A DNA stretch of 64,000 bases from an uncultured Pseudomonadota bacterium (GTDB lineage: Bacteria > Pseudomonadota > Gammaproteobacteria > Steroidobacterales > Steroidobacteraceae), in contig CALGVD010000122.1 in NCBI GenBank assembly GCA_937920275.1, positions 1 through 64,000 of the forward strand, read 5' to 3'. Below the pieces are notes generated by a model that was given only the letters and a program-made list of their open reading frames with translations, ran no database searches and was not told where the DNA came from. This document shows, in pieces, positions 58,858 to 63,423 of this stretch (the stretch's first letter is position 1; every line of letters begins with the position of its first letter). The position numbers and the translations under genes were made by a program.

Positions 58858-58869
58858 GGGTCGCCTCAG
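58854..58869. terminator. Small hairpin between dapD and the receptor gene
   Basis: CTGAGG and CCTCAG form a 6-bp stem around a GTCG loop and include the stop codons of both convergent genes. There is no T tract, so terminator activity is uncertain. Confidence 0.35.
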
Positions 58870-61529
58870 AAGCTCGCCGAGATCGATGCCGAAAACTTCA
58901 CCCCGCGATCGTAGCGGTTGAAGTATATCCGGTTCGGCCCGCGCTCCTGATACTCGCTGTACTCACGACCCAGCAGGTTACGCGCCTCGAACTTGAACTC
59001 CATGCCCTTGCCGAGGAACTGGAAGCCCTGGCGCGCGACGAAATCCACCGAGATGCCGGGGGATTCGTAGATATCCGGGAGACCCGCTGCACCGCGGCTC
59101 GTGACCCGATCGCTGGCGTAGGAGATGAGCAGCGTCTGCTGTGACAGCGCATCCTCATCCTCGAGACCGATCTGCAGATTGACGAGGTGCTCGGACTGGC
59201 CCGTCAGCGGGGCGCCGTCGCGGAAGAAGTTGCTCGCTGGCTGGGTCACCGTACCGAACACATCGGTGGTGTCGCCATCCTTGACGCTGATCTCGGACTT
59301 CGACCAGGTGTAGTTACCGATCAACACCAGTCTGCGCGATGCGAAGAACGCGCGCTCCGTCATGTCCGACAGGAAAAAGTACTTCTGCGACTCGAGCTCA
59401 AGTCCGTACAGGGTCGCCTCAGGCGCGTTGGCGAAGCTCGTGACCGGATTGTTGTCGTTGAAGCCGGTGAACGCTTCGATGGGCTTGTCGATCTCCTTCC
59501 AGAAACCGGCTGCCGACAGGCGCTGATCGCGCGCGAAGTACCACTCCCAGCGCAGTTCCGCATTCTTGAACTCGCTGTCGATCAGCAAGGGGTTTCCACG
59601 ATAGGCGCGGTTGCTCTCGGGGTCGTAGTACGACTGGAACATCAACTCGCGGAACTGGGGACGCGCGATCGTCTGCGAAGCGTTGAAACGCGCTTGCATG
59701 TCGTCCGCGAACTTCCAGGTGAGCGTCAGGGCGGGCAGGATGTAGTCGTTATCAAGACGGGTCACCGCGGACGACCCGGCCTGTGTAGCGAACACCTGTC
59801 GCGGTTCCACCAACTGTTCGGCCTGCTCGTAGCGCACGCCCGCATTCACCTCGAAGCCATCCGTCACCTCAGCCTGCACCTGAAGGTAGGCGGCCTGGGT
59901 TTCAAGCGACGCCGTGAAGGCAGGGTCCGATTCGGTGGTCTCGATGGCCCTGATCCCGTAGAAGTCGACGACCTCGGAACCGAGCAGGTAATCCGGGCGG
60001 AACATCGCGACACCGCTCGGGAAAGTCGAGGGCGCGATGGCCAAAAACTCGCGTCGCTCGGAATCACGCTCGGTGTCCGTACCTTCCAATCCCGCAGACA
60101 TGACGAACTGCGGCGTGATCTCCCACGACGCGTCGGCGCCGTAGGCTAAGAGGTCCTCGTCGAGTTCGGAGAACACGATGCTCGCGAAGCCGGTCTGACC
60201 GTTGTCGAGGCGGTTGATGAAATACGCGCCATAGGGATCGGCGGCGATGTTGGAGCGGGAGTAGCCGAACGCAAGCTCGAAGGGCGCCTTGCGGCTGGAG
60301 TTGGCGTAGGCCGCCCGCAGATCGATCTTGACGGGGTCGAAGTTGAAACCACCGCTGAGCTGTGTGCTCCACACCTGCCGCTCGTACCAGCCGGTCTCCT
60401 GCTCGAGGAAATCCCGGTCAGGGCGTTGGCTGTTCTGCTTGCCTTCCGAGAGGCTGGTGCGCTTCAGGGTGTCGCGGATGATGAGGTTGGTCCACCGGAT
60501 CTTGTTTCCCTCACCGAACTCGTAGCCCAGACCGAACAGTCCATTGACGACGATGCGGTTCTCGGTCGAGACCTGCCTGTAGTCCTTGTCGAGGACCGAG
60601 AGGTCCGCATCCGCGGCGTTCTGCTCGATGTTGTCTTTGGTGAGCCAACTCTGGCTGTAGCCGGCGGTGGCCACGACACCCAGCTCGCCATCGCCGAGTT
60701 CCCGGGAGGTGCCGCCGCTCAACGAGAACGAGGTGTTCACCGGGATCTTGTCGTTGCGTTGGATGAGCCCGGTGTTGGTGTTGGCGAACTCCTTGGCGAG
60801 GTCCCCTGACTCCGTACCGTATCCGCTCAACCGTTGACCGCTCGCGAAGTACGCCGCCATCGCCGGAGGCACATCGCGGACGCCGCTGTCGCTGCCGGTC
60901 CAGTCGTACTTGCTGCCGTAATGGGTGTAGCCGAGATGCCCCGTCGTCTCGCTGTCGCCGCTCAGCCCGAAACCGAACTTGAGGAACGGCTCGCGAGGGA
61001 CCGCGAGCGTCGTGAGATTGATCAGACCGCCGCCGAACTCGCCCGTGAAATTCGCCGAGTAGCTCTTCTGCACGACAGAGGACGCGATGACATCGGTCGG
61101 GAACAGATCGAGCGGCACCGCGCGGCGCAGCGGCTCCGGACTCGGCAGCGGCAATCCGTTGAGGAAGGCCTGCGAGTAACGGTCGCCGAGACCGCGGACA
61201 TAGACGAAGCCGTTGCTGCCGACGCTGAGGCCCGTCACGCGGCTCAGGGCGCCTGCGATGTCGCCCTCGCCCGTCCGTGCGATGTCAGCGGCCGACAGCA
61301 CCGAGAGGACCTGGTTGGCAGCCTGCTGGACGTTGCGGTCGCGACGACCGACGATGACGACCTCGCCGACCGTATCGATATCCACCACCTCCACGGCCTC
61401 TTCCACATCCGCCTCTGTAGCCGGGGTGGGCGGGGCGGCGGGCGGCGCCTCTTGGGCCGCCGCGACGGCCGTGAGCACCGCGAGTGCAGCGATCAGAAGC
61501 GAGCGGTATCCCGCAACTAGATTGTCCAT
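58866..61529 (-). CDS. TonB-dependent outer-membrane receptor
   Basis: An 887-residue receptor from the ATG at 61529, which has GAGGA five bases upstream; a TTG at 61556 is also open. A signal peptide ends near AAAQE, followed by an Ala/Pro/Glu-rich segment and a TonB-box-like GEVVIVG. The plug domain has ALSRVTGLSVGSNGFVYVRG and GLGDRYSQAFLNGLPLPSPE, and a 22-strand barrel follows. The last residue is Phe. It should move a substrate into the periplasm using TonB energy; the substrate is not evident. It follows the lipoprotein gene by 87 bases, behind a PHO-box-like promoter. Confidence 0.93.
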   Translation of the reverse strand: MDNLVAGYRSLLIAALAVLTAVAAAQEAPPAAPPTPATEADVEEAVEVVDIDTVGEVVIVGRRDRNVQQAANQVLSVLSAADIARTGEGDIAGALSRVTGLSVGSNGFVYVRGLGDRYSQAFLNGLPLPSPEPLRRAVPLDLFPTDVIASSVVQKSYSANFTGEFGGGLINLTTLAVPREPFLKFGFGLSGDSETTGHLGYTHYGSKYDWTGSDSGVRDVPPAMAAYFASGQRLSGYGTESGDLAKEFANTNTGLIQRNDKIPVNTSFSLSGGTSRELGDGELGVVATAGYSQSWLTKDNIEQNAADADLSVLDKDYRQVSTENRIVVNGLFGLGYEFGEGNKIRWTNLIIRDTLKRTSLSEGKQNSQRPDRDFLEQETGWYERQVWSTQLSGGFNFDPVKIDLRAAYANSSRKAPFELAFGYSRSNIAADPYGAYFINRLDNGQTGFASIVFSELDEDLLAYGADASWEITPQFVMSAGLEGTDTERDSERREFLAIAPSTFPSGVAMFRPDYLLGSEVVDFYGIRAIETTESDPAFTASLETQAAYLQVQAEVTDGFEVNAGVRYEQAEQLVEPRQVFATQAGSSAVTRLDNDYILPALTLTWKFADDMQARFNASQTIARPQFRELMFQSYYDPESNRAYRGNPLLIDSEFKNAELRWEWYFARDQRLSAAGFWKEIDKPIEAFTGFNDNNPVTSFANAPEATLYGLELESQKYFFLSDMTERAFFASRRLVLIGNYTWSKSEISVKDGDTTDVFGTVTQPASNFFRDGAPLTGQSEHLVNLQIGLEDEDALSQQTLLISYASDRVTSRGAAGLPDIYESPGISVDFVARQGFQFLGKGMEFKFEARNLLGREYSEYQERGPNRIYFNRYDRGVKFSASISASF

Positions 61530-61563
61530 GCAGTCCTCATATCGACAGTCGGTCAAGAGAGGT

Positions 61564-61593
61564 GGGGACGACGACAGAGACCGTCGCCGCCCC
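61564..61593 (-). other. Intercistronic stem-loop between lipoprotein and receptor genes
   Basis: On the minus strand GGGGCGGCGAC pairs with GUCGUCGUCCCC through 11 base pairs (one G-U) with a single bulged U and a seven-base loop. It lies 23 bases after the lipoprotein stop and has no T tract. It may stabilise the upstream mRNA or set the ratio of the two products. Confidence 0.5.
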
Positions 61594-61616
61594 GCACACT
61601 CCGCTGGGCATGATCC

Positions 61617-63209
61617 TTACGGCGTGATCAGGGGCAGGCTCGTGCAAGCAGACCCGGTGGCGCCGAAGTTCGCCGTCGCCGAATTGCAAGACCAGCCGGC
61701 GAACCAGGTGTCCGCCGGATCCTTCACCGCACCGACATAGGTGGTGGTGTCGAAGCGTGAGTCGACCGTCTTCGGGTCGGTCGCGGTCCGCGCCGTCTCG
61801 TTCGCACCGTTGATGAAAGTGTTCGACAGCGTCGCGGTGAACGCCGAGGAGTTGTTGTTGCCCGCGACGTTGAAGGCTGCATCAGCCTGCGCCGCAGTCA
61901 CCCCGCTACCCTCGACGAAGGGCGTCGGTCCCGTCTGCATCACCACCGACTTGAACACCGGCGCGCCGACCTTATCAACCGCTGCGTTCGTCGTGAGGAT
62001 GTTGGCGCCGGACAGGCGAAGACCGGCGATGGGGGTCGTCACCACGCCGTTCACCAACGCGGCATCGGCTTGACCACGGAACAGCATCGCTGCCTTGTTA
62101 CCGGTCGACGGGTTGCGATGGACGAAGGTGAAGTTCGCGAGCTTCATGAAGGTGCGCGGTGTCTGATCTTCAAGGGCATTGGCGCTGTCGAGTTCGATCA
62201 TGGAGTCCGCGGCGCCCGAGGTCTTCTGTACGGCGATGACGTACTGCAGGACGCCCCGGAAGCCGGTGTCGAGATCGATGTTGTCGTCATCCGCGCCGGT
62301 CACGATGACCCGTCGAGCGTTGTGCGTACCGCCAAAGAACTCGAAGCCGTCGTCCGAGCTGTTGTGCGACTGGAAGAACTCGATGGTGGTACCCGAGCCG
62401 ACGCCGCCGGTGGTCAGCGCCTGCAGTTCCGAGTTGCCCGAGAGCACGAACCCTGAGTAGCGGATCTGCACATAACGCAGCGTGCCGCTGTTGTCGGTGG
62501 GGGTCGCGCCGCCGTAGATGGCGGGATCCACGGCACCCTCGACCTGGCGCTCGCAGTTCACGGAGCCCGGCGTCGCGCCCGGCGCGATCGTGCAATCGGT
62601 GATCGGTGCACGACCCGAGAGGACGACACCGCCCCACTGACCCTGTGAGTCGTCGGTCGCGAGACCGAGGACATTGTCACGGCTGGTGAAGATGATGGGC
62701 TGGGTCGCCGTGCCTGCCGCAGTGATGCGGTTGCCACGGTTGACATGCAACCAAGAAACGCCGACCGCGCCGTAGACGATGACGCCCGGCTGGATGGTCA
62801 GATTGACATTACAGGCCTTGCCGGCAGGGCTGCCGACGGCGGCGCCGCAGTCATCGCCGACATCGACGCGACCGCCGAGCGAATAGAGAAGACCGGCCAC
62901 ACGGGGCAGGTTGATGCTGCGGGTGATGCGCGCCGGAAGCTCGCAGTTGCGATAGGTTCCGGTCGTACCGGCGATGGTGCCACGGTCGGTGAGACCCGCG
63001 GGATCGTTGATGGTCGGGCAACCAGCGGCCGGGATCACCAGTGAAGGCGGCGGCGGCGGCGGCGGGGGCGGGGGCGGCGGCGCGGGGTTGTTGATGGTGA
63101 TGTTGCCGCCGCTGCCCGGCGAGGCGATCTCCTCGGCGCCGCAACCGGCGAGCACCGCAACCGAGGCGGCAAGGAAGAACAGATTGCGAGAAGTGGACGA
63201 ACCGTTCAT
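61617..63209 (-). CDS. Secreted lipoprotein of unknown function, receptor-linked
   Basis: A 530-residue lipoprotein: the signal peptide ends in the lipobox LAGC (Cys23), followed by a Gly/Asn-rich spacer and twelve consecutive prolines (residues 44-55). The remainder is rich in Gly, Thr, Asn and Val with recurrent short strands such as NLTIQPGVIVYGAV, QGQWGGVVLSGRAPI and SDDGFEFFGGTHNARRVIV, suggesting a repeat beta-solenoid fold; I recognise no enzyme motif. Several Cys pairs (CPT, NCELP, DDCG, CNVN) fit an oxidising compartment. GGAG precedes the ATG. It is first in the operon with the TonB receptor and probably works with it at the cell surface. Confidence 0.8.
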   Translation of the reverse strand: MNGSSTSRNLFFLAASVAVLAGCGAEEIASPGSGGNITINNPAPPPPPPPPPPPPSLVIPAAGCPTINDPAGLTDRGTIAGTTGTYRNCELPARITRSINLPRVAGLLYSLGGRVDVGDDCGAAVGSPAGKACNVNLTIQPGVIVYGAVGVSWLHVNRGNRITAAGTATQPIIFTSRDNVLGLATDDSQGQWGGVVLSGRAPITDCTIAPGATPGSVNCERQVEGAVDPAIYGGATPTDNSGTLRYVQIRYSGFVLSGNSELQALTTGGVGSGTTIEFFQSHNSSDDGFEFFGGTHNARRVIVTGADDDNIDLDTGFRGVLQYVIAVQKTSGAADSMIELDSANALEDQTPRTFMKLANFTFVHRNPSTGNKAAMLFRGQADAALVNGVVTTPIAGLRLSGANILTTNAAVDKVGAPVFKSVVMQTGPTPFVEGSGVTAAQADAAFNVAGNNNSSAFTATLSNTFINGANETARTATDPKTVDSRFDTTTYVGAVKDPADTWFAGWSCNSATANFGATGSACTSLPLITP

Positions 63210-63423
63210 GGGCTACTCCGTGGGGACCAGTCGATGCCGGGCCGGATGACGCGGCGGGGCGGGTAAGGGATCGGATGCGGCCGAACCCGACCGCTGACGG
63301 CAATCTAAGTGCAGGCCATGACACCGAGATGAACGCTTTGTGACATTTTGATGGCGGACGGTCGTTCGACAGGTCCGGCGCGCAGATGTCAACGATGACC
63401 CCATGCGGATTAGAATCCAGAGG
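63210..63423. other. Divergent regulatory region between lipoprotein and oxygenase genes
   Basis: A 214-base intergenic region with lower GC than its surroundings. It holds the PHO-box-like promoter for the minus-strand operon. For the oxygenase a TAGAAT at 63411-63416 lies very close to the first ATG, with no clear -35, so its promoter is not resolved. Confidence 0.5.
63302..63346 (-). promoter_or_regulatory. Candidate PHO box promoter of the lipoprotein-receptor operon
   Basis: On the minus strand three repeats, ATGTCAC (63346-63340), CGTTCAT (63335-63329) and GTGTCAT (63324-63318), are spaced exactly 11 bases apart. They resemble the PhoB half-site CTGTCAT. Ten bases after the last repeat is a -10 box TAGATT (63307-63302), with no separate -35, as in PhoB-activated promoters. 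The lipoprotein ATG is about 90 bases downstream. Confidence 0.65.

Follow-up and report, generated by a model that had tools for sequence, protein, structure and literature searches.

A lipoprotein and TonB-dependent receptor pair beside a pst cluster in a Steroidobacteraceae genome, compared with the ElpS/CC0171 system

In Caulobacter crescentus, ElpS (CC0170) is a lipidated, surface-exposed lipoprotein of the outer membrane that is made under phosphate starvation, and its gene adjoins cc0171, which encodes a TonB-dependent receptor (TBDR) and is followed by gspC-N (PMC2996285). In that report, a similar organisation is described for Xanthomonas campestris, S. alaskensis and Hyphomonas neptunium, the release of ElpS depends on the type II secretion system (T2SS), and overexpression of elpS raises the phosphatase activity of the supernatant (PMC2996285). 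TBDRs and the T2SS are among the members of the Caulobacter PhoB regulon according to a second study (PMC11208175). In this study, we examine a pair of the same arrangement in a window of 64,000 nucleotides (the whole stretch of DNA that was analysed: positions 1 to 64,000 of contig CALGVD010000122.1, GenBank assembly GCA_937920275.1) from an uncultured bacterium of the Steroidobacteraceae. On the minus strand of this window, an ElpS-type lipoprotein gene (61617..63209; an open reading frame of 530 aa, stop included) is followed by a TBDR gene (58866..61529). An earlier note on this DNA, made from its letters alone, had read the two genes as a probable phosphate-starvation-induced uptake system. 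Our results support that reading in outline, and we put at roughly three in four the probability that the pair, placed at the end of a pst cluster, is an outer-membrane module for scavenging that belongs to the ElpS/CC0171 type and is under PhoB control. The pair is not new in kind, as a scavenging system of this type is already known from Caulobacter.

Related lipoproteins have also been described in Flavobacterium johnsoniae, where FI-FIII are induced by phosphate depletion and have been modelled on polygalacturonase (PMC8115612). As reported there, FI-FIII show 31-36% identity at 50-54% coverage to the Caulobacter protein, FII is in the phoBR operon, and two of four low-phosphate lipoproteins are encoded downstream of low-phosphate TonB-dependent transporters (TBDTs; PUSIII and PUSIV) (PMC8115612).

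The promoter box and the phosphate genes

Upstream of the lipoprotein gene lies a triple direct repeat that resembles the PHO box, ATGTCAC-aaag-CGTTCAT-ctcg-GTGTCAT (63346-63318, minus strand), with a pitch of 11 bp. A -10 element, TAGATT (63302..63307, minus strand), starts exactly 10 bases past the third half-site. The earlier note had described three 7-bp repeats at this pitch with a -10 box ten bases later, and both were confirmed at 63346-63302; our recount also agrees that the first two repeats match the E. coli consensus at 13 of 18 positions and that the third half-site matches at six of seven. Two properties of PhoB promoters, half-sites repeated every 11 bp and a box that replaces the -35 element about 10 bp before the -10 element, are both found here, and the repeat is a predicted PhoB site in the -35 position. 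The half-site consensus CTGTCAY was used for scoring, and three half-sites at pitch 11 give a maximum of 21. The window box scores 17 and is the sole site of at least 17 on either strand of the 64 kb. When its own upstream region (300 bp) was shuffled 2000 times with dinucleotides preserved, that score was never reached (shuffle maximum, 16). The outer half-sites give the pattern TGTCAY-N16-TGTCAY, which was picked after the window site was known; across the 2.7 Mb of the genome it occurs three times without mismatch: before pstS, at the window site and on C29. The reversed-pattern control gives no match. At pstS the box is triple and none of its half-sites is degraded, and the C29 copy lies inside a reading frame that reads as MinD-like from its translation. 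A search for two half-sites with at most one mismatch returned 31 genome matches, two of them at pstS, versus 11 for the reversed control; the window site is missing from these matches because its middle half-site is degenerate. One of the 31 matches is located at C18:6923.

To compare the box among relatives, a search of genome_contigs was made with the lipoprotein, and the best 80 of 472 confirmed relatives served as the locus set. A start could be identified in 72 of these loci, 60 of which had at least 45% identity and at least 150 bp upstream; after loci at least 85% identical had been removed, 41 remained and, together with the window, provided 42 upstream regions for scoring. Starts in relatives were chosen with a simple rule based on the lipobox, and errors of a few codons are possible. 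When the forward strand is read at pitch 11, the best scores average 15.26 and 15 of the 42 regions score at least 16, versus a mean of 12.05 and 0.06 regions in 42 for shuffled sequences. The same threshold is reached by none or one of the 42 regions at pitches 7-9 and 12-15, by five at pitch 10, and by one at pitch 11 on the reverse strand. Furthermore, a half-site is followed by TA after exactly 10 bases in 36/42 regions, the window included, compared with 2-16 when the spacing takes any other value between 4 and 17. The upstream sequences share descent, and therefore the counts across them are not independent. Motif discovery without a prior recovered aCtGTCACaaA.C.GTCAc..a.CTGTaAtAt from 13 gammaproteobacterial sequences, with a log-likelihood of 190 versus 94-101 in six shuffled sets; for the 42 sequences the values are 438 versus 119-129, for a motif dominated by Erythrobacteraceae. 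The shuffled sets had fewer starting points, so the real sets are somewhat favoured in both comparisons.

Two further samples were scored in the same manner. The sample from the phylum comprises 30 loci including the window, six of which had no or almost no upstream DNA, and in one of the 30 (L123) the start was set to the beginning of its frame; among the 24 that were scored, 10 (our own included) reach at least 16. In the sample from the genus and family, 15 of 17 loci were usable, two of them from other genera, and 9 of the 15 score at least 16; several of these loci look like the same genomes as among the 42 upstream regions. The earlier note had proposed to compare this intergenic region in relatives and would have been refuted by repeats that are not conserved upstream of orthologues. 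The comparison did not refute it: the repeats are clearly enriched at pitch 11, although many relatives are without a good triple box.

Phosphate genes are also found in the surroundings of the pair. The contig of the window (C122) runs to 68,034, and the part past the window carries pstB, pstA and pstC, named by Pfam family and gene order, on the same strand as the pair. Another contig, C21, carries phoB, phoR (PF11808), a metallophosphoesterase gene, a glycosyltransferase gene, pstS and Porin_5; its phoB product combines Response_reg with Trans_reg_C, and the gene adjoins that for the PF11808 PhoR kinase. The ends of C21 and C122 share 55 identical bp within a porin gene. In four relatives (L005, L006, L013 and L028), the order pstS-porin-pstC-pstA-pstB-oxygenase-lipoprotein-TBDR is contiguous, and L004 has the contiguous order pstA-pstB-oxygenase-lipoprotein-TBDR. 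In addition, phoB-phoR lies directly upstream of the lipoprotein gene in L012, which has Porin_5 and PhoU downstream, a phoR fragment lies directly upstream in L015, and phoB-phoR is found upstream in the distant relatives L064 and L146. OmpR-type regulator hits near several loci, including those of Erythrobacteraceae, are weak (26-39%) and were not counted as PhoB. The phosphate-starvation control proposed in the earlier note is strongly supported by the adjacent pstB-pstA-pstC, by phoB-phoR-pstS on the contig with the overlapping end, by the same order in four relatives and by the induction of ElpS described in the Caulobacter report (PMC2996285). We consider the membership of the pair in the Pho regulon to be well supported.

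The receptor and the lipoprotein

The listed open reading frame of the TBDR gene, 58866-61556, starts at a TTG; GAGG precedes the ATG at 61529, which is the more likely start and gives a protein of 887 aa. The protein has PF00593 and PF07715 above their cut-offs and no other Pfam family, and its single sequence has no match in the Protein Data Bank (PDB) up to E 0.1. The genome holds 28 TBDR barrel matches. The lipoprotein encoded upstream has an LAGC lipobox (63152-63141, with Cys23, as read from the translation).

The pairing was examined in 63 orthologue-level loci, four of which lacked room. In 58 of the 59 usable loci, the TBDR gene is directly downstream of the lipoprotein gene on the same strand, and a gspD match occurs downstream in 16 of the 50 orthologue loci with at least 6 kb of downstream sequence. 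The receptor is therefore a near-constant partner, and type II secretion is an occasional neighbour. Because the other 34 of the 50 loci gave no gspD match, we regard adjacency to the T2SS as a lineage trait and not as a defining one; over all 80 loci, gspD follows the pair in 17, all titled as Sphingomonadales or members of that order. L020 carries the lipoprotein gene, the TBDR gene, gspC, gspD and gspE in this order. Among eight further genome stretches, the TBDR is beside the lipoprotein in seven (not in L148), with gspD past the TBDR in L142-L144 and no gspD match in L141 and L145-L148. The lipoprotein-TBDR-gspD order is found in G256, G311 and G301, from other classes of the phylum. Of 17 more distant loci, from Bacteroidota, Lysobacteraceae, Zhongshania and others, eight have a TBDR match upstream, four have one downstream and five have none.

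These counts bear on another explanation of the locus, according to which the lipoprotein acts mainly after release, as an exoprotein that boosts extracellular phosphatase and is freed by a T2SS-secreted protease, with the TBDR as a separate neighbour in the Pho regulon. The T2SS-dependent release of ElpS and the effect of its overexpression (PMC2996285) are in keeping with this explanation, as is the presence of gspC-gspD on C25. However, a TBDR directly downstream in nearly every locus and a gspD match in only a minority are not what it would lead us to expect, and here the T2SS genes are on a contig apart from the pair, which no T2SS cluster flanks. Moreover, the Caulobacter report states that isolated ElpS has no phosphatase activity and that deletion of elpS has no effect on supernatant activity (PMC2996285). 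We consider this explanation unlikely, although it deserves to be kept in mind. A T2SS-dependent release as in Caulobacter is possible for the present protein and is not suggested by its gene neighbourhood.

The lipoprotein itself has a proline-rich linker at about residues 42-55 and, at E<=0.001, matches neither a Pfam nor an NCBIfam family; its best Pfam match, Colicin_D, was rejected (E 0.28). A search of the PDB by sequence gave a best E of 0.38 for the single sequence and no match up to E 1 for the profile. In 47 members of the family examined with Pfam, the core was unrecognised in all, and only four PKD or sorting-tail families were found, each in a single member. The earlier note had called the fold unknown. 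That description can now be replaced, because a parallel beta-helix is predicted with high confidence for the domain at 61827..63023 (minus strand; about residues 63-461). The AlphaFold2 model, built from 47 relatives and starting at residue 56, consists mostly of strands (mean pLDDT 92.3, pTM 0.93), and VIA-align 2 gives Z up to 23.1 against beta-helix proteins over model residues 8-406, with tailspikes, alginate epimerases and lyases, and polygalacturonases as partners. With Foldseek alone, nothing reached E<=0.001 and the best hit, 2pyh, had E 0.017; the call rests on the strands of the model and on the rescoring of Foldseek's list by VIA-align 2. The identities are only 7-12% in the 50 matches shown, and therefore nothing firm on activity follows from the fold. 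In the 47-row alignment, the acidic residues D231, D232, E235, D253, D254, D257, E284 and D286 (first-row numbering) are invariant and constitute a candidate site.

A sample of 398 genomes from the phylum of the window, taken to be Pseudomonadota, has the family in 51 genomes, our own included, and relatives are also present in Bacteroidota. Within the genus, 17 of 24 genomes, again including our own, have the lipoprotein; the seven without it are 77-86% complete. The genome of the window has a single copy. Two-domain lipoproteins, with frames of about 900-980 aa and two successive matches, were observed in L132, L136, L138, L146 and others, in several genomes of the class of the window and of other classes; that of L146 is encoded downstream of phoB-phoR. 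The closest relative among the matches listed, L003 (91% identity, neighbours 89-97%), is from a metagenome-assembled genome titled Klebsiella pneumoniae, and because this similarity points to the window's own lineage, the label looks wrong.

The fold and the receptor also leave room for a cargo of another nature, since the PhoB-controlled pair might import something other than a phosphorus compound: iron or a cofactor for PhoX and PhoD, or a glycan that serves in envelope remodelling. PhoX and PhoD enzymes need metal, and the genome encodes both families, with one and three matches, respectively. The TBDR profile has weak matches, over short stretches, to the colicin I receptor and the YncD/PQQ transporter, and the beta-helix is a common fold of polysaccharide-active proteins. 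All of this would suit such a cargo; nevertheless, the pair adjoins pstB-pstA-pstC, and the iron variant is opposed by the statements, in the Caulobacter report, that FeSO4 does not affect the production of ElpS and that elpS is not upregulated in iron-depleted medium (PMC2996285). We therefore regard a cargo without phosphorus as doubtful. That the repeats arose by chance or are the site of another OmpR-family regulator, with the pair unrelated to phosphate, is very improbable: it could draw on the degeneracy of PHO boxes, on the poor middle half-site and on several relatives with scores close to background, but the box is unique in the window, its outer pair is rare in the genome, the enrichment depends on pitch, the spacing to the -10 element is fixed, pst and pho genes are adjacent here and in relatives, and the induction of ElpS was found by experiment (PMC2996285).

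Proposed mechanism and further features of the locus

Our results show the promoter geometry and its enrichment in relatives, the neighbouring Pho genes, the near-constant TBDR partner and, as a model, the fold; for ElpS, others have shown the induction by phosphate starvation, the lipidation and the anchoring at the surface. For this organism we infer that PhoB binds, that the two genes share a transcript, that their products form a complex and import a ligand, and what kind of ligand it is. At low phosphate, PhoR would phosphorylate PhoB, and PhoB on the three half-sites, in place of a -35 element, would bring RNA polymerase to the -10 element downstream, with the lipoprotein and TBDR genes transcribed as a single unit. 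The best-supported step, which we hold to be very probably correct, is that PhoB binds the triple box and the pair is transcribed when phosphate is low. The lipoprotein would be anchored in the outer membrane and face outward, with its beta-helix on a proline-rich stalk, and would together with the TBDR capture, and perhaps process, a phosphorus-containing polymer or ester. Because the pairing is near-constant, the two proteins are likely to act as one surface unit. The TBDR would then import the ligand with TonB energy, for phosphatases of the PhoX and PhoD families and for PstSCAB. The regulation and the location make a phosphorus-containing ligand plausible, and we lean towards one with less assurance than we have in the surface unit. 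In our literature search, which covered few subscription journals, no report of the family's ligand was found, and among the titles and abstract beginnings covered no further paper on this pair was recognised.

Several observations weigh against the proposed scavenging module. The middle half-site of the window box, CGTTCAT, is degenerate, and a good triple box is absent in many relatives: 27 of the 42 upstream regions score below 16, the lowest being 12 (L004), as do 14 of the 24 phylum loci and 6 of the 15 loci of the genus and family. At L058 the score is 14 and a downstream TBDR match is lacking, and in other genera of the family the lipoprotein is present in 2 of 13 genomes. According to the Caulobacter report, cc0171 is constitutively expressed and the deletion of elpS leaves supernatant phosphatase unchanged (PMC2996285).

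Between the lipoprotein and TBDR genes, the RNA can fold into a GC-rich hairpin with a stem of about 13 bp (61564..61593, minus strand). Scored against 60 mononucleotide shuffles each, the gap hairpins of 25 of 39 relatives' stretches have z < -2, and that of the window has z -1.4. The hairpin may lower the expression of the TBDR relative to the lipoprotein, although we attach little weight to this suggestion.

The pair is flanked on the pst side by pstB and on the opposite side by a gene that reads as dapD from its translation; the names metAP, glnD, dapC, dapD and MinD-like (C29) are all readings of translations. A 2OG-Fe(II) oxygenase gene (PF13640; 63403-64000, plus strand) continues past the window and diverges from the lipoprotein gene, with which it has a common upstream region. 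Seven gammaproteobacterial loci show the same divergent placement, and because an oxygenase match was found in only 9 of the 80 loci, we exclude the oxygenase from the system. In L103 (8669-11046), metallophosphoesterase and glycosyltransferase genes lie between phoR and pstS, and several Sphingomonadales loci also have matches to both upstream of the lipoprotein gene; the two genes resemble the pairs that remodel phospholipids to glycolipids.

Comparison with known systems

The family is widespread, and yet its core is unmatched by Pfam in 47 members and the window protein is unmatched by NCBIfam. The present comparison narrows the question: the TBDR is a near-constant partner, the T2SS is an occasional one, control resembles that of PhoB promoters of the classical kind, and a beta-helix is predicted for the lipoprotein. 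What a TBDR of the Pho regulon imports is directly testable in Caulobacter, Sphingorhabdus or Steroidobacter.

The SusCD and PusCD systems also join a TBDR to a surface lipoprotein partner. The fold of SusD is helical. Unlike those partners, the window lipoprotein has no SusD family, or any other Pfam family, at E<=0.001, and a beta-helix is predicted for it. We tentatively raise the possibility, which we think improbable, of a widespread third kind of TBDR-lipoprotein machine, different from SusCD, in which a beta-helix lipoprotein would bind and cut a phosphorus polymer such as a phospho-glycan, a nucleic acid or polyphosphate and would feed the TBDR, with the invariant acidic set as its active or metal site. 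If this were true, large phosphorus compounds would be imported rather than first hydrolysed outside. The beta-helix enzymes that act on polysaccharides (AlgE4, AlgG and polygalacturonases) and the phage tailspikes share the predicted fold, with Z about 18-23; however, at 7-12% identity no sequence relation was detected, and the fold does not imply their function. The Flavobacterium proteins FI-FIII, compared by their published description, are likewise lipoproteins, modelled as beta-helices, that are made at low phosphate with TBDTs nearby, although they belong to Bacteroidota and the host here to Pseudomonadota.

The nearest likeness is to ElpS/CC0171. In both, a lipoprotein gene is followed by a TBDR gene, control is by phosphate, and the lipobox is LAGC; furthermore, in 17 of the 80 relatives' loci, all titled as Sphingomonadales or members of that order, the pair stands before gspD, which is the arrangement that was published for C. 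crescentus and for S. alaskensis. The two loci differ in that the pair of the window follows a pst cluster, whereas the Caulobacter pair precedes the T2SS cluster. On the strength of the order of the genes, of their phosphate control and of the lipobox common to both, we assign the pair of the window to the ElpS/CC0171 type.

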